Positions 11,821 to 36,311 of a DNA stretch of 43,940 nucleotides are shown one piece after another. The notes beneath the pieces are model-generated. The model searched no databases. It was not told the DNA's origin and saw only the letters and a list, made by a program, of their open reading frames with translations. Each line of letters opens with the position of its first letter. Positions within the stretch are counted from its first letter, which is position 1. Source of the stretch: a virus; IMG/VR virus record IMGVR_UViG_3300044707_000492, positions 1-43,940 of that record, one strand, 5' to 3'. A program made the translations under genes and the position numbers.

Positions 11821-13286
11821 TAGCGAAAAAGCTCTTACAAGTTCTGAAGCCTGCAACAGGCGGCGGTGGTGGTGCTTTTACCCCATCGCAGCTTACCGGC
11901 CTTCAGCGGTGGTATTCCGCAACGGATGTTGTCACCTCTGGAACAAATGTCACGCAGTTTAACGACAAATCAGGCGGCTCAAATCACGCCACGCAGGCCA
12001 CCGGCACGAGACAGCCAGTATTAAAGACCAATCAGGGCAGCGGCTTTCAGACCGTCTCTTTTGATGGTGTCGATGACATTATCAATTTCGCATCAATGAC
12101 CCTGACCGGTGATTTTACGATTTACTGGATCGGCTACATGCGTGAGGCAAATGATAGCGGCGGCGGCTTTTTTGGCGAGGCAGACGCCAGCCTCAATTCG
12201 CTCAATACTTATCTTCAAGGAACATATTGGTACACCGCCTTGGGCGACATTGCTCAGGGCAACAATTATGCTATCACAAACGGCCTATTTTGTGAGATTG
12301 TCGCAAGGCGGACAGGCACAACGGTCACGATTGAGGTCAACGGCACCACCAACTCGACAAGCGGGCCGGTTAATGCAAATCCTGTCATTGGGCAGATTGG
12401 CAGGGTTTATGGCGGCTATGCAAAGGTTGATCTGGCTGAATTTCTGGTTTACAACCAATATCACGACAACGCCACAAAGGCACAGGTATTAAACTGGGCG
12501 GATCAGACTTATGTTGCGCCTTATCCGCTAATCTTGCCCATCTCAGGGGCGGCTTTATGGCTTGATGGGGCAAGGCGAAGCAGTTTGTTTACAGACGCAG
12601 GGGTTACAAATGTCAGCACAGATGGTCAAGCCGTTTATCAGTGGAGTGATCTGTCAGGAAACAGTCGTACAGCCCTGCAAACAACGCTTGCCAACCGGCC
12701 TTTGTATCGCTCACCGTCCAACGGGCATAACGGGCTTTCAACAACATCATACGATGGCACAAACGATTTCTTTTCTGTGTCAAACACCGAAAACTGGGGA
12801 TTGGTGTTCTCAGGTGATTTTACGATTGATCTTTGGGCAAAATTCACAGACAACACGGCACAGCAAGACCTTTTAGGGCAAGATACTGGCGGCGGACAGC
12901 AACCCAAATGGATTCTCGGGTTAAATAACCCCGGAATTGCTGGTGCGGGCGTGCTTGGGTTTTTGTACAACCTGAATAACACACAAAACTACACTTTTGG
13001 CGTCAACTGGACTCCTGCAAATAATATTCTTTACAGAATCACGGTCACTCGCTCAGGCAACGACACGAAGTTTTACATTAATGGCACACAGCAGGGAGCA
13101 ACCAACACGTCAACAAACAGGCCGAGAGCAGCCACAAACATAAAACTGACTGTTGGGCAGGACGGCGAAGGCTACAGATACACAAAGGGCCAGTTCGGCG
13201 AAGTGTTATTCTTCCCGTTTGCTTACTCCGCTTCTGACATGACAGCGATGTCAGCCTATTCTCTTGCTAAATGGGGTGTGTCGTGA
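11817..13286 (+). CDS. Two-domain LamG/ConA-like adhesin
   Basis: A 489-aa protein. The start is GTG 11817 (GTGA overlap with the fibre stop). After a GGGGGAF linker come two laminin-G/concanavalin-like domains. The first is marked by LQRWYSATDVV...FNDKSGGSNHATQ...SFDGVDD, the second by ALWLDGARRSS...WSDLSGNSRTAL...SYDGTND. Both end in FYING/EVNG-type strands and an AEFLVYN/GEVLFFP strand. Such domains bind sugars or proteins. With the adjacent fibre it probably forms the receptor-binding structure. Confidence 0.8.
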   Translation: MIAKKLLQVLKPATGGGGGAFTPSQLTGLQRWYSATDVVTSGTNVTQFNDKSGGSNHATQATGTRQPVLKTNQGSGFQTVSFDGVDDIINFASMTLTGDFTIYWIGYMREANDSGGGFFGEADASLNSLNTYLQGTYWYTALGDIAQGNNYAITNGLFCEIVARRTGTTVTIEVNGTTNSTSGPVNANPVIGQIGRVYGGYAKVDLAEFLVYNQYHDNATKAQVLNWADQTYVAPYPLILPISGAALWLDGARRSSLFTDAGVTNVSTDGQAVYQWSDLSGNSRTALQTTLANRPLYRSPSNGHNGLSTTSYDGTNDFFSVSNTENWGLVFSGDFTIDLWAKFTDNTAQQDLLGQDTGGGQQPKWILGLNNPGIAGAGVLGFLYNLNNTQNYTFGVNWTPANNILYRITVTRSGNDTKFYINGTQQGATNTSTNRPRAATNIKLTVGQDGEGYRYTKGQFGEVLFFPFAYSASDMTAMSAYSLAKWGVS

Positions 13287-13882
13287 GTCTCTACTGCCTC
13301 GTCGTCAATGGTAATATCGGAGCCCCGGCTGCATTGCCTCGGGACTATCGAAATATCAGCAATTTCTATGCTCTACCCCAGTCAGAACTGGCCCGTTATG
13401 GCTGGTATCCGTTTAACCCAGCCACCAAGCCGACGATCAACGAACAGACCCAGAAAGCGGTTGAAACACTGACATTTGACGTTCAGCGAGGGCAGGTAAA
13501 TCAATCTTGGCAGGTGGTAAGCCTGACGCAACAGGAGCAGCTCAGCTACCTGCGATCAATCCGGCCTGTATTTGCCAAGTATCTCAGAGATTATCTGGAT
13601 AAATCAGTTGCCCCGCGAGATTACGACAATATCGATACCGCTGGCGACTGGACAGACGATTCAGATGCAGCATGGGCCGCTGAATCAAAGCAGGCCAGAG
13701 AGTTTCGATCAGCCTGTTACAAAACTTCGTACCAGATTGAAAATGACGTTGTTTCAGGCGTTCGACCCGTGCCGACACTGCAACAGTTTGAAGATGCCAT
13801 GCCACGATTAGGCTGGGGCTATCCGCCACCACCACCGGCACCACCTAACGGCAACGGTACAGCCAACGGGCCAATGCCATGA
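13283..13882 (+). CDS. Fibre-associated protein (tail fibre assembly-like)
   Basis: A 199-aa protein starting at GTG 13283 (GTGA overlap) or less likely ATG 13271. The C-terminal half contains RDYDNIDTAGDWTDD, WAAESKQAREFRSACY and PTLQQFEDAMP, a pattern like the yDnI..a.....p.f.aEg.a...WRdavw region of phage tail proteins of the DUF4376/XkdW type. A proline-rich end follows (GYPPPPPAPP). It probably supports folding or attachment of the fibre encoded just upstream. Assignment is by motif only. Confidence 0.55.
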   Translation: MSLYCLVVNGNIGAPAALPRDYRNISNFYALPQSELARYGWYPFNPATKPTINEQTQKAVETLTFDVQRGQVNQSWQVVSLTQQEQLSYLRSIRPVFAKYLRDYLDKSVAPRDYDNIDTAGDWTDDSDAAWAAESKQAREFRSACYKTSYQIENDVVSGVRPVPTLQQFEDAMPRLGWGYPPPPPAPPNGNGTANGPMP

Positions 13883-14337
13883 CATTTACCAATGCCGCCC
13901 GCAATTTTACGTTCCTGATGATTGTCGCCTTTGTGCTGCTGATTGTTGACCTCTACAAGTGGCAGACAGGCGGTCAAACGTGGTCAGAAGCGATTTGGGC
14001 AGTGAATCAGAAAACGCTGGCCCTTTCGTTCGGTGTGGGTGTCGTTTGCGGCCATCTTTTTACAGTGCCCAGAAAGGGAATATCAATGCCCGAACCTGAG
14101 ATAAAGCAGTTGCCCTCGATTTGGGGCTATATCAACTGGCGAGAGCTGAGAAACATTGTTATTGCCAGCAATGTTTTACAAGCACTTTTGGACTCGGTAA
14201 TTATACCGATCCTGCAAAATCACTCGCTATGGCTTTCAGAGCCTTGGTCAAGCAGGGTTGCGCCATTCATTGCATTAATCATAGCGTTGCTGTCAGGACG
14301 AGAGTTTGGAAGGCGAATGATTCGTCAAGGGAACTAA
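13879..14337 (+). CDS. Membrane protein, holin candidate
   Basis: A 152-aa protein with three apparent membrane segments (about residues 10-26, 50-66 and 130-145: FLMIVAFVLLIVDLY, LALSFGVGVVCGHLF, FIALIIALLSG) and a short basic tail. It starts with an ATGA overlap. Its place in a cluster of small membrane proteins just upstream of a peptidase is what one expects of a holin or antiholin, but no holin family was recognised. Confidence 0.6.
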   Translation: MTFTNAARNFTFLMIVAFVLLIVDLYKWQTGGQTWSEAIWAVNQKTLALSFGVGVVCGHLFTVPRKGISMPEPEIKQLPSIWGYINWRELRNIVIASNVLQALLDSVIIPILQNHSLWLSEPWSSRVAPFIALIIALLSGREFGRRMIRQGN

Positions 14338-14339
14338 GG

Positions 14340-14699
14340 ATGCTCGATTTAGATCACGATTCAACCAGAAGTTTCATAGATTCCATAGGGGATCGGCTAT
14401 TGGGGCCGGCTTGGATTGTAATCGGCACGCTTGAACTGGCTTCGGCTGTTGTTACAGCCGCTCAGGGCAAGTATTCAAGCGGCCTTGAAGGCTTCGGGCA
14501 TCACGTTATGGATCTTTTCATTCCAGCCGTTACGGCAACGATAGGGTATTTCACAATGAGAAATCGTCGTGAATATTACCGGATAAAATTAGAGCTTGAG
14601 CAACAGAACGAACGGCTCAGGCTCGAAAACGAGAATTTTGCGCTTCGGATAGAAGCCGCAAAACTTGGTGTGCCCGATAAGGGCGATATTGGCGTTTGA
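14340..14699 (+). CDS. Membrane protein with coiled-coil tail
   Basis: A 119-aa protein. ATG at 14340 is chosen from the AAGG just upstream and the contact with the previous stop; the frame is open much further upstream inside the previous gene. Two membrane segments (GPAWIVIGTLELASAVVTAA, LFIPAVTATIGYFTM) are followed by a charged coiled coil (KLELEQQNERLRLENENFAL). The hairpin-plus-coiled-coil layout is seen in holins and in spanin-like inner-membrane proteins. Function inferred only from layout and neighbours. Confidence 0.6.
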   Translation: MLDLDHDSTRSFIDSIGDRLLGPAWIVIGTLELASAVVTAAQGKYSSGLEGFGHHVMDLFIPAVTATIGYFTMRNRREYYRIKLELEQQNERLRLENENFALRIEAAKLGVPDKGDIGV

Positions 14700-14729
14700 A
14701 CGCTCTGTCCCGGAAAGGCTAGGTGATCT

Positions 14730-14930
14730 GTGCCGTTGGAAGTATTAGTCACTCAGGTTTGCACCACAGGATGCCCCCAGACCGTCCAGATTTCGCCCAC
14801 AGTGGCCGTCTATGCGGTTGCAGGTGAAATCTATCGACCGAGACCGCTTGCGGGCCTCCTGCGCAAAAATCGGCAGCCTCAGACGCTGCTCATTCTGACC
14901 CAGCCGGAGAAGCCAAAGGAAAAGAAATGA
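14730..14930 (+). CDS. Small basic hypothetical protein
   Basis: A 66-aa protein starting at GTG 14730 behind AGGTGA. The N-terminal half has two CxxxC-like cysteines (QVCTTGCPQ); the C-terminal end is Lys/Pro-rich (QPEKPKEKK). No family recognised. It overlaps the next gene by four bases (ATGA), so it belongs to the coupled cassette. Confidence 0.5.
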   Translation: MPLEVLVTQVCTTGCPQTVQISPTVAVYAVAGEIYRPRPLAGLLRKNRQPQTLLILTQPEKPKEKK

Positions 14931-15139
14931 ACAAACTCGTGCGATTCGTGCCGTTTGCACTGATCTGGCCCATTATCCAGTTGCTTGCTCCGGTCATTAT
15001 CAAGCTCGTCATTCCATTGATCTTGCAAAAGGTCAGGGATGCCGACGAGAAGGGTGAGATGGTGACAATCACGGACGATGAGATCAGCCGGTTCTTAAAG
15101 CGGCATGAGTCTCACCTGAAGGCGGTGTATCAACGATGA
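14927..15139 (+). CDS. Small membrane protein
   Basis: A 70-aa protein. A long hydrophobic N-terminal stretch (VPFALIWPIIQLLAPVIIK, LVIPLILQ) could form one or two membrane segments. A charged amphipathic C-terminal half follows (VRDADEKGE, DDEISRFLKRHESHLKAVYQ). It has four-base overlaps with both neighbours. Holin-like in size, but the assignment is only topological. Confidence 0.55.
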   Translation: MNKLVRFVPFALIWPIIQLLAPVIIKLVIPLILQKVRDADEKGEMVTITDDEISRFLKRHESHLKAVYQR

Positions 15140-15633
15140 TCAGCCTACTTGCAACAATCCTGCTGGCTCAATCATCCGTGCCCTCGGTGGTGGTACAACC
15201 ATCGACTGAGGAACGCGTGGTGTTCAGCCATCACGGGTTCACGTTCTTTGTGGGCAAACAGACAGGTCAGGTGGTGGTTCTTGGCGACGGCAACCCGACA
15301 CCGCCGCCAACTCCGCCACCTGTACCGCCTCCTGACAATAAGCCAGTAGTTAAGGATGTGGCTTGGTTCTCGCTGATCGTTGACCCATCAGACCCGGAAC
15401 AGGCGCAATGGCGAACAAACAGCGTAATGCGCGGCCTGCTGAAAGATGCAGGGGTACAGTTCCGAACGTATGCCGACACGGAAAGGGACATCGACCTTCT
15501 GAATTTTCGAGCAGACGTTTCCTCGACCGGATTGCCCACAGTGATTCTGCAAGACAAGAGCGGCAAGCTGGTGCAGGTCAAGAAAGTAACGTCGATTGAA
15601 GAACTCAAACTGATCGCAGCGGGGCTGAAATGA
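15136..15633 (+). CDS. Exported Trx-fold-like protein with Pro-rich linker
   Basis: A 165-aa protein. Residues 1-15 (ISLLATILLAQSS) look like a short signal peptide or anchor. Residues 52-66 form a PTPPPTPPPVPPP linker. The C-terminal domain (AWFSLIVDPSD..., AGVQFRTYADTERD, then STGLPTVILQDKSGKLV) resembles a thioredoxin/glutaredoxin fold with the conserved cis-Pro loop, but the redox CxxC is absent. It may be a periplasmic binding or chaperone module working with the peptidase encoded next, whose start overlaps by four bases. Confidence 0.55.
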   Translation: MISLLATILLAQSSVPSVVVQPSTEERVVFSHHGFTFFVGKQTGQVVVLGDGNPTPPPTPPPVPPPDNKPVVKDVAWFSLIVDPSDPEQAQWRTNSVMRGLLKDAGVQFRTYADTERDIDLLNFRADVSSTGLPTVILQDKSGKLVQVKKVTSIEELKLIAAGLK

Positions 15634-16436
15634 GCGACAATCCAGCCGGTTTAGAGCCTTGGGAACTGCCTGACGGTCAATCCGTCTTTCTGGGCAACCA
15701 AGAGCCGCCCGTCAGTCTGATCCTGCCCGTTCGTGGCGTGTTGCCAGACGTGCCCGAGCATAAATGGACAGAGTTTGACCTGCGAAAAGACACGTCTTAT
15801 CCGGTCAAGATCAAGAACCAAGGCTCTTACGGGGCCTGTAATGGCCACGCAGCAGCCTCTTCGCTGGAAGATGCCCGATACGTCGCAGGGCTTGGCTATG
15901 TGCCCCTATCCGCTTGGCTGGTTTACGCAGATCTTTGCAATGGTTTTGATCGTGGCAGTTCGATTGCTGAAGCCCTGACGCTGCTGCAAAAGAGCGGCAC
16001 TTGCGACGATGCACTGGTGCCACACGGGGTCATCAATCCCCGCCGAATCGATGCCGGTGCCAGAGAAAACGCCAAGCGATTCAAAATTGAAATCGGTTAC
16101 AGGCTGCAAAACTTCAACGATCTCTGCGTGGCCTGTCAGCTACGAATCCCGTTCAATTTCAGCGTGCCGGTCAATGCGGGCTTTAACATGCTCGATTCCG
16201 AAGGTGCGCCGCAGAATCGGGCAGGCTGGCACAATCACGCCGTATCAGGCGGATTTGCGATGAAGAAAAGCAAATCAGGCTGGCTCATCGGCATGAGAAA
16301 CAGTTGGGGTGAACAGTGGGGTAATCAGGGCTACTGCTGGATCGGTGAGCGTAACATCCGAGGCAGTGGTTTTGATGCTTACGGTGTGTTTGCGGCGGAA
16401 GTTGACCCAGCCAATCTTCCACCAGTCAGAATTTAA
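15630..16436 (+). CDS. C1A (papain-like) cysteine peptidase
   Basis: A 268-aa protein with an intact papain-type active site: oxyanion Gln and nucleophile Cys in IKNQGSYGACNGHA, His in GWHNHAVSGG, and Asn in MRNSWGEQWGNQGY. The order and spacing match peptidase family C1A. There is no evident propeptide or signal sequence. C1A enzymes cut proteins, not peptidoglycan. It sits after four membrane-type genes, where an endolysin is normally encoded, and no lysozyme or amidase was recognised in the window. It may be a lysis enzyme for a protein-rich envelope, or a virion-maturation or ejection protease. Confidence 0.85.
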   Translation: MSDNPAGLEPWELPDGQSVFLGNQEPPVSLILPVRGVLPDVPEHKWTEFDLRKDTSYPVKIKNQGSYGACNGHAAASSLEDARYVAGLGYVPLSAWLVYADLCNGFDRGSSIAEALTLLQKSGTCDDALVPHGVINPRRIDAGARENAKRFKIEIGYRLQNFNDLCVACQLRIPFNFSVPVNAGFNMLDSEGAPQNRAGWHNHAVSGGFAMKKSKSGWLIGMRNSWGEQWGNQGYCWIGERNIRGSGFDAYGVFAAEVDPANLPPVRI

Positions 16437-16596: not shown

Positions 16597-17736
16597 ATGT
16601 TTAACAATAATCCGTTTGGTAATCAGCGGACGCTCAGGCCGATGGGTTTTCCCGGCATGATTTCAATGGGAGCGGCGAACTATCAGGAAGGATTTAGACC
16701 GCACAGCCCAAAACAGTACGCAGGCATGAGGTCATCTCTTCCAAATGTAAGCGCCAATCCGTTGGCGGCGTCTGGTTTGTACTCGCCTAAGCAGGCGTTT
16801 CGGCCAAACACGCCACAGTCCACCTATCAGGGCGGCATGGACAACATACTTTCCCGGCAGATGTATCGTAACAATCAACCTGAACCGGCGAGAGCAGCCC
16901 AGCCATCGCCAATGGATCAGATGCAAGGCATGGTCAATCGCTTGCGGCCCAATCAGGATCTTATGAATAACCTGAATGCCCGCATGACCCAGACGCTCAA
17001 TCGTCCGGTTGATCGCATGAGGAACGATGCGGCGGGCGTTTCCAACGCAATCAATCCGGCCATGCTCAACCCGGCCAACCCGAACAGTTTTGTGCCAAGC
17101 GGCCAGAATAGCGGCGGTCTGTTGCCACGTCAGAATACTCAGATGGCCAGAAACGTGATGATGGGTCAGTCCCCGACCGCTGACACCAGCATGAGGGCAC
17201 TGAACATCCCCGGTATGCGAATGGAAGGTAATCGTATGGTCAGGATGAATCCATACGAATCCAGAGGCGTTATGCCTAATTCCATGAACCAGACTCAGGC
17301 GGCACTGGCTTATGACAACCCTGATGATTTCCGGGTTGCCACGGGCGGCAAGCCAATGGTTCCGTATGCTGGCAGATCGGTTGCCGCCAATGCTCCGCTC
17401 GAGGGCAGTGCCAATCTCCAGCCCGGACAACTGACCAGAGCCGACTGGGGCGCACGGGCAGAGCGGCAGGCGATGCGGCGTGCCTATATGGGCGGCGGTC
17501 GAAGCTCCGCCGGTTTCAATCAGTTCATGCAGAACTACCTTGCTCGCAAGCAAGGGCCAGCCAACAGCATGGGAGTGGCATCAGTGACCGGAATGGGCGT
17601 GTCAGCGGCCAGTCGAGGGGTGATGCCAAATCAATCAAATGCACCGGCTCCACAAATACCGATTGCAGTACCGTCACAATTCATGCAAAAGCGCGGTTAC
17701 TGGCCAGATGATGTCAGTAATCGGTTTTATAACTAA
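16597..17736 (+). CDS. Met/Asn/Gln/Arg-rich low-complexity structural protein
   Basis: A 379-aa protein, unrecognised. The composition is strongly biased to Asn, Met, Gln, Pro, Gly and Arg with few acidic residues (MDQMQGMVNRLRPNQ, RMEGNRMVRMNPYESRGVMP). It has no predicted membrane segments. Such flexible proteins can be internal virion or head-decorating components. The gene precedes the frameshift pair and lies before scaffold and capsid. The ATG follows AAGGA. The role is inferred from position. Confidence 0.6.
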   Translation: MFNNNPFGNQRTLRPMGFPGMISMGAANYQEGFRPHSPKQYAGMRSSLPNVSANPLAASGLYSPKQAFRPNTPQSTYQGGMDNILSRQMYRNNQPEPARAAQPSPMDQMQGMVNRLRPNQDLMNNLNARMTQTLNRPVDRMRNDAAGVSNAINPAMLNPANPNSFVPSGQNSGGLLPRQNTQMARNVMMGQSPTADTSMRALNIPGMRMEGNRMVRMNPYESRGVMPNSMNQTQAALAYDNPDDFRVATGGKPMVPYAGRSVAANAPLEGSANLQPGQLTRADWGARAERQAMRRAYMGGGRSSAGFNQFMQNYLARKQGPANSMGVASVTGMGVSAASRGVMPNQSNAPAPQIPIAVPSQFMQKRGYWPDDVSNRFYN

Positions 17737-17771
17737 CTTGCCATTTGATCGCTTGTTAAGGAGAACATAAC

Positions 17772-18704
17772 GTGCTTTTCAAATTCTTCAAGGCAACAGC
17801 TAAGCCAGCCCCTGCCAAGCCAGCCGCCAAACCCGCCGTTAAGTCTGCCCCACGGGTCAGCGAGCGGTACGGGGTATTTGCCAGCGATCAAGGCGGCGAA
17901 TACATGGTATCGCCGAAAAAGAAGCGATTTCTTGTCAAAAGCGATGACAACAACTTCTATGTCGAGACTGACACGGGCACTCAGAAACGCTACACAAAGG
18001 TTCCTGAAGGCCATTTCAAAAAGCAGGAAACGGCATTTGACAAGTACACTGGCAAAACAGAAGTTGTCAGGGACTACGACTCGCCTGAGCAGTACGCCGC
18101 CGCTTTAGTTTCTCGGAGCGGTTATTCTCTGAGAAAGCAGCAGACGGAAGTGTACGGCGATCCAATAATGGATACCGTCAACAAGAAAACCGGCAAGGAA
18201 TATGGCGGCAGGATGTACCATGCCCCGGTCGAGCCACGATCCCGGACAATGGTACAGGCTGATAATTACAGGAAAACTGAGGATCAGATTCATGCTTACA
18301 TGAACGATCCGGTGCTTAAAGAGAAATCCAGAGCGGCCTCTGCGCCTCCCCCGCCGCCATCTCCGCCGCCTGTAAACGACCCGGCAAATTTCACTGCATT
18401 CAAGGTAAACACAAAAAAGCCAAAGGCTCCCACAGTCGATCCAAACTACAAGCTACCGGTAAATGATCCGGCTAACTTTGGGGCATTCAGGGTAAGCACC
18501 AAGGCAAGTAAGCCTACGCCCAGCAGTCAGTCAAAACCAATTTCCTACAACCCGGATGTCTGGAAGAATTTCAATCAGCCCAGACCAGATCCTGTAGTGG
18601 ATACCGCAACTCAGGAAGTTAAACCTGAGCCTGAAGCCGTTGTAAAAACCCCCAAGCCAAAGAAAAAGAAGGCCACGGTCAATTCGGGAAAAGCCAAGTC
18701 CTGA
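17772..18704 (+). CDS. Structural-type protein, zero-frame product of a -1 frameshift pair
   Basis: A 310-aa protein starting at GTG 17772 behind AAGGAG. After an Ala/Pro/Lys-rich leader, residues about 33-150 form a domain with SERYGVFASDQGGEYMVSP and YTKVPEGHFKKQ. Two similar linkers follow (VNDPANFTAFKVNTKK, VNDPANFGAFRVSTK), then a Pro/Lys-rich end. The stop (18702-18704) comes three codons after the slippery heptamer at 18686. Below it an open frame of 1163 codons continues in -1 with the same Pro/Glu-rich composition, so this is probably the short form of a two-product gene. Confidence 0.75.
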   Translation: MLFKFFKATAKPAPAKPAAKPAVKSAPRVSERYGVFASDQGGEYMVSPKKKRFLVKSDDNNFYVETDTGTQKRYTKVPEGHFKKQETAFDKYTGKTEVVRDYDSPEQYAAALVSRSGYSLRKQQTEVYGDPIMDTVNKKTGKEYGGRMYHAPVEPRSRTMVQADNYRKTEDQIHAYMNDPVLKEKSRAASAPPPPPSPPPVNDPANFTAFKVNTKKPKAPTVDPNYKLPVNDPANFGAFRVSTKASKPTPSSQSKPISYNPDVWKNFNQPRPDPVVDTATQEVKPEPEAVVKTPKPKKKKATVNSGKAKS

Positions 18705-18725
18705 CGCCCGAGGCCAGTGCGTCAG
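18686..18725 (+). promoter_or_regulatory. Programmed -1 ribosomal frameshift signal
   Basis: Slippery heptamer G-GGA-AAA (18686-18692) in the zero frame, an 8-nt spacer, then a hairpin of CTGACGC (18701-18707) with GCGTCAG (18719-18725) and an 11-nt loop. Heptamer type, frame register, spacer and stem all match the canonical -1 signal. The lambda G/GT site uses the near-identical GGGAAAG. Confidence 0.85.
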
Positions 18726-21700
18726 TTGTCCCAGAGGCCGCTCCTGAAGTCGTAACAGAGCCTCCAAAGGTTGAGCCTCCAGAAGTAGAGATTCCAAAGG
18801 GTAAAAAGCGGAGAATAAGCCAAGCCTTCGCAAGCAAAATCGAAGCGATTGCAAGGGGCGATGTAGATTACGGCAACGAGCAACGCTTTAAGAGGGGCGG
18901 CAACTACACAATCACGCCCGATGTGGTGACAAAGGCGATTGATCTGCCGGACGCCCTTCAGTCAACCTATGCGCGTGCCCTCTCTGGCATTGGCTTGGTG
19001 CAGGCGTTCGGTAAGGATACGCCGATTGAATCACTCAGGCAGTACAAGGGCAAGTCTGGCACAAGCGTTTACGACTGGCTCAAGGCCAGCACGAAAGACG
19101 AAAAGGAGTTTACCAAGTTTGAAAAAGTAGGCGATCTGCTGAGAAAACAGCGGGGAGGCGATCTGACCAAGCCTGACATCACGGTTGACCCTGATACTGG
19201 GCTTGTTCCGGCCCCGATAGAAGATGAGTTGATCAGTAATCTTCGTGGCGACGCTGATCTGCTGGGCATACGTCAGGAGTATCAGGACGCCGCCGAATTT
19301 GGTCAGGGCCTGCTGAAGATGCGTCAGGCGATCAAGGCGTCAGATGACAATGGTGGAAGCGATGCAGAGCATTCTGCCATTCTGGATCGGGCGTTCTCGC
19401 ATTCCGGCTTCCAGAACCTGATGAAAAAACATGGAGTCGATGAAGGTCAGATCCGGGACGCTCTGAGCAAGTGGCAATCCAATCGGGCAGCTAAAAATCA
19501 AACGCATAAGGATCTGTTTGCGGAGCTAAGTAAGAAGTCGGTTGATTACCGGAAACTGACAGCCAACCTTAAAGCCAACGAAAAGGCCGATCCCAGCGGA
19601 TTTGGCGATGCTGCCCGGACAGCCAATGAAGTGACCGGCGAGCTAGAGTATGGCGTGGGCGGTCAGATTGCAGGCCGGATCACGGATAAGGATTTCCAAA
19701 ATCCAGAAAAGCAAAAGGTGGATGCGTGGTCTGGCGTCAATGAAGCGTTTGACACGACCGACGAAGAGGCGATAGCTCTCGCATCAGCTTTGAACCTTGA
19801 CACAAAGGATAAAACCACACAGCAGATCCGTGACATGGTGTTTGGCAGGATTTCGACTTCGACAAAAGGCATCAGGAATGTAGTGCCAGCGAACACCACG
19901 GCGGAAGGCAAGGTTTTCGATAGCGTCAGGGGGTTCGCAGAGCAAACGCCAAGTCTGGCGGCTCAGGATAATCTGGAGTTAAGCCCGGAATATCTGGATG
20001 AGATGGCGGATATTGACGCTATGGAAATGGACGCACAGACGGTAGCGTTCAATATTAAGCACGGAGCCAGACCTTTTGAATTTCGAGATGCACAGGACGT
20101 TCCGAGGCTGAGGGAAAACCTCAAGCGGTATTTCCTAGACGATGACTCGCTCTACGACGCTATGGCGGGCGAATCCACTTTCCTGACGACAAGAGAACTC
20201 GAAGAAAGAATAGCGGAAAAGTCAACGCCCTACGAGATGTCGGCTGATCAGGCATCGCTGGAAAACTACAGCACGGAGGATAGAGAGTCTGGCAGGGCCG
20301 TGAGCATCGAGGATCTGGCCAGCAGCGAGTCAGAAATCGGTCGAAAGATGTATTTCACATCAGCCGACAGAAAGAATATCGAGTTTCTGGAAAGCAATAT
20401 CAGGGACTTTGACGAGCTAAACCGCAAAGCATACGAAGAAGCCATCAACCAGAAAGTTGACGATTGGTTCAGCGATCCACAGAACTTGGAGTATTTGAGG
20501 CAAAACAAGCCTCAGTTGGAACAGGTTCGTGCAAAGATCATGCTGAGTTACCTTGATGATCTGTTTGCGAACGATGCGATCAGCAAAACAGGCTCGCCAT
20601 TTGCCCGCAAGGCTGTATTTATCGATCCAAAGGACAGGACGATCAAGGTTGGCGACATAGACAGGGTACAGCTTGGCAAAGGCTCCGACGAAGAGCATCC
20701 CCGTGTTACAGCCGCCAAGATGGCAAAACAGTGGCAATCGTACATTGAGGAAATCGAGGCCAAACGGACTGAGAGCGGCGATCTGAATTACGGAAACACC
20801 CAGATCGCTCGCCGCCTGTACGATTCCTACAATGGCCAGAATCTCCAGTTTCAGGTCGTTGGAATTGAAAGGCTCAAGACGGAAATTGACGCTATTGAGA
20901 AGGCTCTGGCCAACCCAAGCCTGCCGGTAACGTCCGGTCTGGAAAAGATGCTCGCCAATCAAAAACGGCAACTTCAGCAGGCGGAAGCGAAGCTAAATAT
21001 AGAGTTTCCGGATTATGACCGCCGTAGCACCGCCCTGACCCCGGAAGAACTGGCCGCACAGTCCCAGTATGCCGCTGAAATTGGCGATGGCGAGACGATT
21101 ACAGAGTTCCCGGTCGATGCGTCGGTTTATCTGTCAGCGGCCCCAACGCACACTACGGCGGCTCCAGAAGGCTTGCAGAACGCTTATAGGGATTGGAGCG
21201 GTTATCAGCAAGAAATTGACATGGCTGAGGACAGTCCCGATCTGATTACAAGGTATAATGAGCTTGGCAATATCATGCAGGGCCGGAGCGATGCTTTTGT
21301 CTCGATGCTGGAGACGGTTCCATCGTCGCCGGGCCGGAAGCTGGATGTATCGCAGGAGCGAATGATAGGTCGGTTTGAATCACCCGAGCCGTCCCAGAAG
21401 GTCACGGTCAGAAACTACCGGATGGAAGAGGACGTACTGGCGACGGCTGAAAAGTACCGCCGTACTTCCGGCCAGAAAGAGGTTCACGTCCTGTTTGATA
21501 TTGATGATCAAAAAACGCTTGTCGGCCATGACTACGGCGACGGCTCTTACGCTACGCAAGTGGTCACGATCCCCCTTGAAGAGAGAAGCCTCAAAAACGA
21601 CTTGCCTTACATTCAGGAAATGGCCAATCAAGCCGGTCTCACCGGATTCAGCGTGAACCTGAAAACAAACGAACTGGAGATTTACTATGTCGGAGACAGA

Positions 21701-22183
21701 ACCCCAGAAAGCATCGAACGATGGACAGCAGGAGTCGCCGGTTTCCATAACGGACTACTTCGAGAAAAAAGTGTCAGAACTGATAGAGACGATGGAAAAG
21801 CAGTCAGGACAGAAAGTTATAAGAAGAGAATCCAGACGCTCGGGCCAGAATCAAAGTGGGCAACCGAAGAACTCGGCAACTATTTATTTGGTGCCTCCGA
21901 ATCCGGCACAGTCCCCGGAATCGCCGAATGGGCAGGAGCCGACACCATAAACCCACTGAAATACAACCCGTATTCCTTTGGCGATGTAACCGACCGTTCC
22001 GCCGCCATCGGTGCCGGGATGTTGCCTTCCGATTTCCAGTCCGGGTTGCCTGACTACCTGAGAACGGGCGATCCGGCTCTGGATCAGATTGCATACGAAC
22101 TACTCAGCCAGCAGACAGGCTCGACTCCGCAAGCCAATACCAGCGCTCGCTTGAATAAGGGACTCAGAGTAAAACGTCGTTGA
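18692..22183 (+). CDS. Large virion-type protein reached by -1 frameshift (C-terminal part of fusion)
   Basis: An open frame of 1163 codons counted from the first codon after the slip. The frame is open back to 18635 but has no ATG; the first GTG is 18923 without a ribosome-binding site. Read as a fusion with the upstream 307 codons it gives about 1470 aa. After a Pro/Glu linker comes RFKRGGNYTITPDVV, echoing GGEYMVSP of the upstream domain, then a long charged helical region (about 18.95-21.0 kb) and a C-terminal mixed part. No enzymatic motif was seen. It may be an internal or ejected head protein. The 3' end overlaps a second frame (21687-21950). Confidence 0.7.
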   Translation, partial: SQVLTPEASASVVPEAAPEVVTEPPKVEPPEVEIPKGKKRRISQAFASKIEAIARGDVDYGNEQRFKRGGNYTITPDVVTKAIDLPDALQSTYARALSGIGLVQAFGKDTPIESLRQYKGKSGTSVYDWLKASTKDEKEFTKFEKVGDLLRKQRGGDLTKPDITVDPDTGLVPAPIEDELISNLRGDADLLGIRQEYQDAAEFGQGLLKMRQAIKASDDNGGSDAEHSAILDRAFSHSGFQNLMKKHGVDEGQIRDALSKWQSNRAAKNQTHKDLFAELSKKSVDYRKLTANLKANEKADPSGFGDAARTANEVTGELEYGVGGQIAGRITDKDFQNPEKQKVDAWSGVNEAFDTTDEEAIALASALNLDTKDKTTQQIRDMVFGRISTSTKGIRNVVPANTTAEGKVFDSVRGFAEQTPSLAAQDNLELSPEYLDEMADIDAMEMDAQTVAFNIKHGARPFEFRDAQDVPRLRENLKRYFLDDDSLYDAMAGESTFLTTRELEERIAEKSTPYEMSADQASLENYSTEDRESGRAVSIEDLASSESEIGRKMYFTSADRKNIEFLESNIRDFDELNRKAYEEAINQKVDDWFSDPQNLEYLRQNKPQLEQVRAKIMLSYLDDLFANDAISKTGSPFARKAVFIDPKDRTIKVGDIDRVQLGKGSDEEHPRVTAAKMAKQWQSYIEEIEAKRTESGDLNYGNTQIARRLYDSYNGQNLQFQVVGIERLKTEIDAIEKALANPSLPVTSGLEKMLANQKRQLQQAEAKLNIEFPDYDRRSTALTPEELAAQSQYAAEIGDGETITEFPVDASVYLSAAPTHTTAAPEGLQNAYRDWSGYQQEIDMAEDSPDLITRYNELGNIMQGRSDAFVSMLETVPSSPGRKLDVSQERMIGRFESPEPSQKVTVRNYRMEEDVLATAEKYRRTSGQKEVHVLFDIDDQKTLVGHDYGDGSYATQVVTIPLEERSLKNDLPYIQEMANQAGLTGFSVNLKTNELEIYYVGDRTPESIERWTAGVAGFHNGLLREKSVRTDRDDGKAVRTESYKKRIQTLGPESKWATEELGNYLFGASESGTVPGIAEWAGADTINPLKYNPYSFGDVTDRSAAIGAGMLPSDFQSGLPDYLRTGDPALDQIAYELLSQQTGSTPQANTSARLNKGLRVKRR
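21687..21950 (+). CDS. Nested overlapping gene candidate
   Basis: An 87-aa frame wholly inside the 3' part of the large gene. The ATG at 21687 has GGAG seven bases upstream. The product is coherent: a polar N-terminus (MSETEPQKASNDGQQ), a helix suited to coiled coil (DYFEKKVSELIETMEKQSG), a basic patch and a Pro/Asn-rich tail. Codon choice here looks like the rest of the phage, while the enclosing frame becomes rich in AGA, CGA, CTA and GGA codons over the same bases. It resembles nested phage genes such as Rz1, but the function is unknown. Confidence 0.5.
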   Translation: MSETEPQKASNDGQQESPVSITDYFEKKVSELIETMEKQSGQKVIRRESRRSGQNQSGQPKNSATIYLVPPNPAQSPESPNGQEPTP

Positions 22184-22250: not shown

Positions 22251-23066
22251 ATGGCGGAAGGTCGCGATTTTCAGGGCATGTATTACAGCTTTCGAAACAA
22301 GGCCAAAGGTCTTGCTGCAAGAGTTCGTGATCTGGAAGATGCTCTGGCTAAGAAGTCCCAAGAATCCGAACACCGCTACGAGTTGCTTAAAAAGGTCAAT
22401 TCGGCCTATAAGGAACTTGAGCAATCACCACGGCTGACTGACGAAGAATATCAGCAGTATCAGTATGTGATTGCTCACCAGCAATGGACACAGCATGTAC
22501 AGGCTTTCGAGAGCGCACTCGAAAACGTACTTGCGCCGGGCGTGACAGCAGAACAGGTTCTCAGGGCAGTTGGATACGATCCGGCACAAGTCACGGAATT
22601 GACGCCGGATCTGGTTCAAGGGCTCTTCGAATATGCGTCTGACCAGATCCCCGCTTTCTTCAAAAATGGTGGCTACGAGGCCGAGGATGAGCCTCAAGCT
22701 ACTGACGACACCCCGGAAGTTCTCAATACCGTCGATACATTCAAGGCAGCGTTTGAAGCTGGCTCTGTCGCTTCGCAGCAGCAGCAGAACGGCTTTTCCC
22801 AGAGCGGTACTGAACGAAATGGCTATAATGCCAGTGTTCAAAGTGATGTCAGGCCGCAGATGGCCCAGCATCAATCGGCTCCACAGACGCCAGCGGCTGA
22901 ATTTCGTGGTTTTGGGCAAGTGGCCAGTCGTGGTGGGCCTTCGCCAACAAAGGTTGCAGCCGTGGGGGCGCATCTGCGCGACCCGGTTTGGATTGCGAAC
23001 AATCAAGGTGCGCTGGCCGAAGCTGTCAAGGAAGGCGTTCGTGTCGTGAACGTCGATTCCAAGTAA
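22251..23066 (+). CDS. Probable capsid scaffolding protein
   Basis: A 271-aa protein immediately upstream of the major capsid gene. It is acidic and helical, with an N-terminal coiled coil (RNKAKGLAARVRDLEDALAK, YELLKKVNSAYKELEQ) and a Gln/Asn/Ser-rich, probably disordered C-terminal third ending in charged residues (EAVKEGVRVVNVDSK). This layout is typical of phage scaffolds, which line the procapsid and are removed before packaging. The ATG follows TTGGAG. Assignment rests on position and composition. Confidence 0.7.
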   Translation: MAEGRDFQGMYYSFRNKAKGLAARVRDLEDALAKKSQESEHRYELLKKVNSAYKELEQSPRLTDEEYQQYQYVIAHQQWTQHVQAFESALENVLAPGVTAEQVLRAVGYDPAQVTELTPDLVQGLFEYASDQIPAFFKNGGYEAEDEPQATDDTPEVLNTVDTFKAAFEAGSVASQQQQNGFSQSGTERNGYNASVQSDVRPQMAQHQSAPQTPAAEFRGFGQVASRGGPSPTKVAAVGAHLRDPVWIANNQGALAEAVKEGVRVVNVDSK

Positions 23067-31795: not shown

Positions 31796-33271
31796 ATGAG
31801 CGTCGAAGAGACGTTTTCAGAGATCGAACGGCGACTTAGAGAGATCCAGACCAACACCAGTTACCGGCCCAGTATGGATGTCAAATATGGCGAGATAGTT
31901 ACTCCGACAGACTGGTTTGGTGAAGGAGAATGGATATGGATAAAACTCAACTCGAAAGCAACGGCCAACGGCGAATACTTCTACGGCTGGCAGCAGATGC
32001 TCAGACTTGTCAATGCAACTGGATCGTACACATGGATCAACGGCGAGAAGTTTGGTTCGGTCAACGAATTTCCGGCCATCGCACTGAATAACGACAACCT
32101 TTCCACTACAGACGGGCGAAGGTATCCGGCCCGGTGGAATCCTGACACTTATCAGTGGATTTTTTTTTTGAGGGACAGAGAAACGCTAGGCGTACTCAAC
32201 TACCGCTTTACCGGCACCGCCGCATCAAGCCTGACAGCACCCGTTTACGGCTTCTCAAAGCGATGGTTCCGCACAAATGCAATGACCGGCAATGGAACAT
32301 GCCCGTCAGGTGATTTCGTGCAATCGCAAACTGCAACTTACAATAACATCACATTTTACTATGAATACAGTAACGGCACCCGGAGCAATCTGGCAACATT
32401 TCAGAATAATGGCACCGCCAATAGCCCGATTGATGTCTGGTTCAGTGCCAACGTGACATTCCCCGGCAGGATTGGCGTAGATTGTGTTTATTATGATGGC
32501 AGTGTGTTTGGTAGCCATACCAACGCTAATGGATGCGTTAATGGCTATGCTCACCAAGTCGCCGCCGATACCAATGCAAATATGGCCGTATCTGCAAGCG
32601 GTAATAATATCACGCTGGCAATTCCATTTACGCCCACGATTATTTATCCGGCAGACGACCTTGCGTGGCCTTCCGAAGTTACGGTCAATTTCAATGTGTC
32701 GTACGGACAGGCTAACGCTGGCTGGCCAGCAGCGGTTCAGACGGCTTTCAATAACTGGTCAGCCAATATTGCATCGCAACTTCAGAAACTCACTGTGGGC
32801 GTTAATCAGCCGATCAAGAGTTGTACCGGGTACACAGTCACGCATGGCCGGATCACTGGTACGCCTACGCATGAGTTTGATGTGACATCAGGAACCTGTG
32901 GAACAAATAAAATACGCATCTGGCTTGAAAGCCGTACAGAAAACGCAGCGGCCCAGCCATATTATTTTGCCGGTTCAAAGCGGGTCAATTCATCCGGCGT
33001 GAATACCGAACTAAAATACTCGTTTGCCCACAATGGCGGCGGCACGGTCAAGATCGGTTCAGCGTTGAACACCGGCACATTGCCGACTAATGTAATAGGT
33101 GCCGACATGGCTAAACTGGACGAGTGTACGCTGATTAAAACATGGTCGCCCAATTCAAGTGGAAACCTTTCAATGCACCAGATCAATGTCGGCTTTGGTT
33201 ATGACGATGCGGGCACATGCACTGTTTATCAGCAGACATTTAGCCTGATGGGTAATATTACACGATCTTAA
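31796..33271 (+). CDS. Tail fibre / minor tail protein
   Basis: A 491-aa protein, last of the late operon. A short helical start (SVEETFSEIERRLREIQTN) is followed by a beta-rich body full of Asn, Thr and Gly (ITFYYEYSNGTRSNLATFQ, TYTNG-like turns), as in receptor-binding tail proteins. Ten consecutive T at 32160-32169 fall in the coding frame. The ATG follows AAGGAG. It ends one base before the convergent integrase gene, with no terminator visible between them. Confidence 0.6.
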   Translation: MSVEETFSEIERRLREIQTNTSYRPSMDVKYGEIVTPTDWFGEGEWIWIKLNSKATANGEYFYGWQQMLRLVNATGSYTWINGEKFGSVNEFPAIALNNDNLSTTDGRRYPARWNPDTYQWIFFLRDRETLGVLNYRFTGTAASSLTAPVYGFSKRWFRTNAMTGNGTCPSGDFVQSQTATYNNITFYYEYSNGTRSNLATFQNNGTANSPIDVWFSANVTFPGRIGVDCVYYDGSVFGSHTNANGCVNGYAHQVAADTNANMAVSASGNNITLAIPFTPTIIYPADDLAWPSEVTVNFNVSYGQANAGWPAAVQTAFNNWSANIASQLQKLTVGVNQPIKSCTGYTVTHGRITGTPTHEFDVTSGTCGTNKIRIWLESRTENAAAQPYYFAGSKRVNSSGVNTELKYSFAHNGGGTVKIGSALNTGTLPTNVIGADMAKLDECTLIKTWSPNSSGNLSMHQINVGFGYDDAGTCTVYQQTFSLMGNITRS

Positions 33272-35361: not shown

Positions 35362-35752
35362 ATCTTATCAGGTACTCGCCAAGGTAACGAAAGACCTCGC
35401 TCGGCAACGCAGCGAGGTTGATCGTTTATGGCGAGAGTGGTCGGCGTCACTGTTTGCCGACCTGCGGGCAAAACGCATTGACGCAAAGCTGCTAATCTTC
35501 AATGGCAGCGACAGCGTGGATTACTACGCACTTGACACGGCGACTGAAACGATTTCGCTGGTCACGTCAAATCAGATTATCCAGATGTCCCGGCCTGATT
35601 CCAATAACGATGCCGGTACTGAATGTAATGTCGATATACCTACAAGGGAGGATTCGGATGAGCGTTTACAAGAAGCTGCACAAGATACAGGCCAATCGCC
35701 TTCAGGTGGTGAAGAACTGCAAGGCGAATCTTGGCGGGGGTCGAGTCTATGA
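35348..35752 (+). CDS. Hypothetical protein upstream of ERF
   Basis: A 134-aa frame starting at TTG 35348 with GGAAGG upstream. The N-terminal half is a charged helix (ESYQVLAKVTKDLARQRSEV, DRLWREWSASLFADLRAKR), followed by two strands. The C-terminal third is Asp/Glu/Ser-rich and overlaps the ERF gene by 95 bases, a long overlap that suggests the functional part ends earlier. No family recognised; perhaps an accessory to the annealing protein. Confidence 0.5.
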   Translation: MSLSESYQVLAKVTKDLARQRSEVDRLWREWSASLFADLRAKRIDAKLLIFNGSDSVDYYALDTATETISLVTSNQIIQMSRPDSNNDAGTECNVDIPTREDSDERLQEAAQDTGQSPSGGEELQGESWRGSSL

Positions 35753-36311
35753 ATATGCCAGTCTGGATGACGTGCTGGCACAGGCCATTCCAGCCATGAA
35801 TGCGGCGGGTCTGGTACTGACCCAGAGTGTGCTGGTGTCCAGCGACAATCATGTTGTCCGCACTGAGGTGATTGACACGGAGACGGGCGAAAAGGTCACT
35901 TCCGATATTGCGATGCCGGTTGTGGTCAAGTGGCATGATTTCGGCTCGGGCATGACCTATGCCCGGCGTTACGCCCTCTCGGCCCTGCTGGGGATCGCCT
36001 GTGACGGTGACGACGATGCCAACGTGGCGATGGAATCCCAGCGTCAGGAATCCAAGAAGCTCACCTTCTTCCCCATCGTCCAGAAGTTTCAGGCTGATCT
36101 AAAGCGGGAAGGCTTCGAGGTGAACGTCGATGAGGCGGTCGGCGTGATCTACGACCTTGTTTCGGCCAGTTACAAGGATGATACGATGGCCCGTACCACC
36201 AGCGAGCGTGGGGTCTGGCTGGCGTCAATCCTGAACCGTGTCGGTCAGGCTGAGTTCAACAGCATGATTGATGAGGCCAAGCACGGCTACATGGATGCGC
36301 CGGGAAACTGA
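35658..36311 (+). CDS. erf: ERF-family single-strand annealing protein
   Basis: A 217-aa protein. It matches the ERF superfamily: SVYKKLHKIQANRLQV, YEYASLDDVLAQAIPAMNAAG, VLTQSVLV, VVKWHDFGSGMTYARRYALS, ALLGIACDGDDDAN. ERF proteins form rings that anneal complementary single strands in phage recombination, usually paired with an exonuclease (here the YqaJ protein at 40629) and SSB. The ATG at 35658 follows AGGGAGG. The open frame upstream belongs to another reading frame. It ends just before a strong terminator. Confidence 0.93.
   Translation: MSVYKKLHKIQANRLQVVKNCKANLGGGRVYEYASLDDVLAQAIPAMNAAGLVLTQSVLVSSDNHVVRTEVIDTETGEKVTSDIAMPVVVKWHDFGSGMTYARRYALSALLGIACDGDDDANVAMESQRQESKKLTFFPIVQKFQADLKREGFEVNVDEAVGVIYDLVSASYKDDTMARTTSERGVWLASILNRVGQAEFNSMIDEAKHGYMDAPGN

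Follow-up and report, generated by a model that had tools for sequence, protein, structure and literature searches.

Organization of the split gene

Two overlapping open reading frames (ORFs) precede the MCP gene (23106) of an uncultured virus, and the question was whether they represent one gene read through a programmed ribosomal frameshift, one gene broken by the loss of a base, or two separate proteins. The studied sequence was the IMG/VR record IMGVR_UViG_3300044707_000492 (positions 1–43,940), and this whole stretch of 43,940 bases is referred to as the window. The 3' end of ORF1 reads TCG GGA AAA GCC AAG TCC TGA, and the conceptual fusion of ORF1 and ORF2 via a slip at this place is 1470 aa long (Table 1).

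Table 1. Coordinates of the split gene, its slip signal and the neighboring features in the window.
Feature	Position	Strand	Description
Shine-Dalgarno (SD) TAAGGAG of ORF1	17757–17763	+	7–8 nt before GTG 17772; anti-SD duplex −9.0 kcal/mol
ORF1, zero frame	17772–18704	+	GTG start, 310 aa; N-terminal domain and beginning of a Pro/Lys/Glu-rich linker
Second in-frame slippery heptamer, A_AAA_AAG	18413–18419	+	Within the same linker; ribosomes slipping here would terminate after ~17 codons
ORF2, −1 frame	18635–22183	+	Slipped ribosomes would enter at AGC 18692–18694; supplies the other 1163 aa of the fusion
Slippery heptamer, G_GGA_AAA	18686–18692	+	X_XXY_YYZ in the ORF1 zero frame, three codons before the stop; class V_VVA_AAR
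Spacer, 8 nt	18693–18700	+	Separates heptamer from hairpin
Hairpin, 7 bp, perfect	18701–18725	+	CTGACGC 18701–18707, 11-nt loop, GCGTCAG 18719–18725; −10.3 kcal/mol
Downstream gene, 271 aa	22251–23066	+	31–41% conserved in relatives; synteny marker

The initial annotation had described the −1 frame as open over its whole length without a credible start of its own, and the analysis bore this out. The first ATG, GTG or TTG in ORF2 is GTG 18923, where no Shine-Dalgarno pairing could be detected (duplex energy 0), compared to the strong pairing at the ORF1 GTG (Table 1). The −1 frame is open through the heptamer and its codon usage downstream is that of coding sequence. Codon-usage scoring placed the switch from the zero frame to the −1 frame at about 18682–18703, in better agreement with the heptamer than with the A5 run (18663–18667). 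The Pro/Glu/Lys linker style, which had been reported to continue across the slip, runs on into the −1 frame in the translation of the fusion.

The locus had been placed between the peptidase gene and the scaffold; a further gene (16597–17736) separates the peptidase gene from the split gene, and the name scaffold was deduced from position. The designation of both halves as virion-type proteins was likewise deduced from position, and neither half matched any family in the PHROGs and Pfam searches. The AlphaFold models were unusable, with a mean pLDDT of 40 for the N-terminal part of the split protein and of 31 for the 806-aa gene.

Slip signal and chance estimates

The heptamer in the zero frame, the 8-nt spacer and the perfect 7-bp hairpin three codons before the stop of the 310-aa ORF were confirmed at base level as initially annotated. 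The hairpin covers the zero-frame stop (18702–18704). Heptamers of the V_VVA_AAR class, including G_GGA_AAA, rank with the efficient E. coli motifs, and the usual spacing between heptamer and structure is 5–8 nt (PMC4066793). Earlier work, as cited in a passage of the same paper, had termed G_GGA_AAA inefficient in E. coli (PMC4066793). The upstream sequence holds no notable SD-like stimulator (background fraction 0.30), and an Rfam search gave nothing at Rfam thresholds.

One-base deletions were simulated in 35 genes taken from the window and from the relative g2 (contig of L003/L015), and the resulting frame overlap was scanned for an efficient-type heptamer, defined as XXXAAA[A/G]. Such a heptamer occurred in the overlap in 2.2% of the 12,939 cases, and in 3.7% when the deletions were restricted to homopolymers. 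None of the 12,939 deletions produced a heptamer followed, at a spacing of 5–9, by a perfect Watson-Crick stem of 7 bp; under a looser definition 0.05% did. When hairpins were scored by energy, about 10.5% of coding positions matched the slip-site hairpin (7-bp stem at 8 nt, −10.3 kcal/mol). Folding of the downstream segment was average for its composition (z = +0.38 for 50 nt and −0.15 for 100 nt). Depending on the hairpin measure, we estimate the combined probability of a coincidence of heptamer and hairpin at approximately 1e-4 to 2e-3. The combination of heptamer, spacer, hairpin, frames and missing second start is hard to obtain by chance.

Comparison with related contigs

Direct searches of viral contigs with either half of the split gene found no relatives. 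Relatives were found through the portal, peptidase and capsid, and the contigs with the same gene order were compared. Among cultured phages, no DNA or protein match could be found for the split gene, the portal or the 806-aa gene, and the window matched them only in distant terminase, peptidase and capsid. The genome collection contained no capsid relative and only distant peptidases.

Between the homologues of 16597–17736 and 22251–23066, a single ORF was observed in each of the four syntenic relatives, coding for 1500 aa in L015, 940 aa in L016, 996 aa in L017 and 1354 aa in L018 (identical to L019). These continuous relatives have a common layout of an N-terminal domain, a Pro-rich linker and a long C-terminal part. 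No slippery heptamer was present at the corresponding place in L015, L016 and L017. The initial annotation had proposed to compare the conservation of heptamer and hairpin in related phages; the site was not conserved, and no relative carried the split or the heptamer at this place. The slip site is thus, judged from these sequences, not a conserved device, since four relatives are continuous and three of them (L015–L017) lack the heptamer.

Homologues with one continuous frame and no heptamer had been named in advance as evidence against programmed frameshifting. That situation was half realized in these four relatives, while the signal, the frames and the missing second start stand in favor of the reading. 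Conservation supports a frameshift call and is unnecessary for a lineage-specific signal. The continuous relatives do not refute frameshifting in this phage, because the same would be expected if the fused protein were the needed product. As the relatives with the same gene order have a continuous ORF, the fused chain probably represents the ancestral state of the protein, and the window would therefore have lost the equivalent of one base.

The N-terminus of the window protein resembles the continuous relatives in layout, with weak sequence similarity. An hhalign comparison of the window and the relatives gave an E value of 0.002 over 26 residues, compared to 0.09 for the best of 30 shuffles. 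The HMM matches were colinear across the slip (residues 52–367 and 564–656), with a score that was not significant after bias correction. With this weak sequence significance, orthology of the window protein with the relatives is suggested mainly by synteny and layout. Contig L010 was dropped as a homologue; neither of its two ORFs at this place matches the other relatives.

Elsewhere in the window, the block 13271–16436, which contains the papain-like peptidase gene, is mostly 80–96% identical to relatives. In these relatives the head genes flanking it are only 30–57% identical to those of the window or belong to another type. This contrast in identity suggests module exchange.

Probable frameshifting and alternative explanations

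The two frames are read here as one gene expressed through a −1 programmed ribosomal frameshift, at a probability of about 0.65. Most ribosomes would stop at 18704 and yield the 310-aa N-terminal-domain protein. A fraction would slip at G_GGA_AAA, with tRNA-Gly moving from GGA to GGG and tRNA-Lys from AAA to AAA, and the hairpin 8 nt downstream probably aids the slip. The slipped ribosomes would make the 1470-aa protein with the junction ...VNSGK|SQVLTPEAS.... The signal, the frames, the absent second start and the unsplit ORF at the same place in relatives are observed, and the occurrence of slippage, its rate, the stimulation by the hairpin and the importance of both products are inferred.

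A possible, although clearly less probable, explanation is that a continuous gene was broken by the loss of one base, through a genuine recent mutation or through a mistake in assembly or sequencing, and that heptamer and hairpin are coincidental. Every syntenic relative is continuous, the site contains GGG and AAAA runs, the source is a single metagenomic contig and the hairpin energy is ordinary for this DNA; moreover, a frame transition that is unclustered and has fused homologues mostly proves to be an error or an indel (PMC3711429). On the other hand, deletions placed at random or only in homopolymers create an efficient-type heptamer within the overlap in just 2–4% of cases, and almost never one with a 7-bp stem; the break combines continuous syntenic relatives with the presence of a recoding signal. 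No other mid-gene frame break was found in the conserved genes of the window, and none attributable to error in approximately 220 kb aligned among relatives, where frame changes between contigs were few and all located at gene-gene junctions. The sequence quality looks good. A frame difference at 13879–14337 was ruled out as a sign of low sequence quality: two adjacent small genes (MTFTN... and MPEPEIK...) with varying spacing are joined in a single frame in the window and lie in different frames in three relatives. By sequence alone, a single lost base is indistinguishable from frameshifting, and the continuous frame of the relatives is silent on whether the ribosome regains the frame in the window. 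Were the deletion real, some full-length protein might still be made through natural slippage. By our own estimates, the prior is approximately 10–50 to 1 for indels and the likelihood ratio of the signal amounts to some hundreds to thousands; frameshifting is therefore favored. The stated probability takes into account that the hairpin evidence varies with the measure used, that the site lacks conservation and that a single strain is involved.

It is quite unlikely that the two frames encode separate proteins, with ORF2 translated by termination-reinitiation at CTG 18701 or from GTG 18923. The CTG shares bases with the stop (CTGA), the usual −1 arrangement for coupling, and has weak SD pairing (−4.3 kcal/mol), and an apparent GTGA overlap occurs between the two ORFs at this place in L010; CTG is, however, a rare start, and GTG 18923 lies without an SD 219 nt past the stop, within the −1-frame coding sequence. 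Furthermore, the break interrupts a linker which the relatives encode as one chain. A tail-chaperone frameshift of the lambda G/GT type can be regarded as extremely improbable. The lambda gpG/gpGT chaperone resembles the locus in the G_GGA_AAR-class heptamer, the −1 direction, the slip just before the zero-frame stop and the short and long products (PMC5009743). Unlike that system, which lies between the major tail protein and the tape measure, the window site precedes the capsid gene, its product is far larger at 1470 aa, no chaperone similarity could be detected in PHROGs or Pfam and the site is unconserved among relatives. The initial remark that this is not the usual use of such a signal agrees with the position before the MCP gene and the missing chaperone match.

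Under the favored frameshift reading, the group may even keep a two-product strategy, a short N-terminal form and a full-length chain, by different slips, although this is doubtful. In the window, the zero frame would give the short form and the GGGAAAA/hairpin frameshift the long one; in L018 and L019 the long form would come from the zero frame and the short one from slippage on an A9 run located at almost the same residue. This run (L018 4599–4607, same in L019) is the only A≥9 run of that genome and covers residues 313–315 of the 1354-aa relative, near residues 306–307 where the window would slip, and it was counted in favor of frameshifting. A slip there would reach a stop after ~10 codons and give a short form of ~325 aa, close in size to the 310 aa of the window. 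The placement of the run may be chance, as one lineage is concerned and several kinds of signal were examined.

Relation to known frameshift systems

The mechanism is of a known kind and the gene family is new. The frameshifts of T7/T3 gene 10A/10B and of phiEco32-like capsid genes are also −1 and lie in a structural-operon gene, and Privateer uses GGGAAAG for its capsid frameshift (PMC5009743, PMC7881722). These add a small extension to a capsid protein, whereas ~1160 residues would be added to an unrelated protein in the window. Genes of the dnaX type are continuous in some bacteria, while the two-ORF type in others needs recoding for the long form (PMC3711429); as at the present locus, some homologues are continuous and others need a frameshift for the long form, next to a short N-terminal product. 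They are, however, non-homologous, and two-ORF dnaX genes mostly carry poly-A stretches which suggest transcriptional slippage, in contrast to the heptamer and hairpin of the window. G_GGA_AAA is also among the heptamers used with downstream structures in the −1 frameshifts of the IS3/IS1 family, although those are transposase genes with longer or more complex stimulators (PMC4066793).

If the frameshift is real, it adds a head-module protein of 1470 aa to the tail chaperones and small capsid extensions for which phages use frameshifting, and the gain of a frameshift would be open to comparison with unsplit relatives. Gene callers would annotate this gene as two unrelated proteins.

Other slip-prone runs

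The ORF 35502–36311 has an in-frame GGGAAAC heptamer (36302–36308) two codons from its end, where the −1 extension is only 19 aa. In the gene 31796–33271, which follows the 806-aa gene, a T9–T10 tract was observed (32160–32169 in the window). It lies exactly at the transition from a conserved N-terminal domain of ~130 aa (RYPA[KR]WN.DT.QW[IV]FF) to an unrelated C-terminal part. The tract was searched with a codon-neutral pattern in which the Ile/Val and Phe codons could take any third base that the code allows. The matches and the window together comprised seven distinct phage sequences, namely the window, L018 (17997), L024 (reverse strand), L066, L069, L070 and L071, and the tract was kept at the nucleotide level in 7/7. 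In these genomes TTT accounts for only 52–57% of Phe codons, and ATT/GTT for 21–38%. In the sequences examined, a one-base slip in one direction leads to an immediate stop. The T tract could reflect programmed transcriptional slippage, phase variation or the seam of a recombination event, and the gene itself may encode a tail fibre. It is a stronger lead than the A9 run of L018/L019 and is better conserved than the frameshift site, and the use of slip-prone runs may be more widespread in this phage group.
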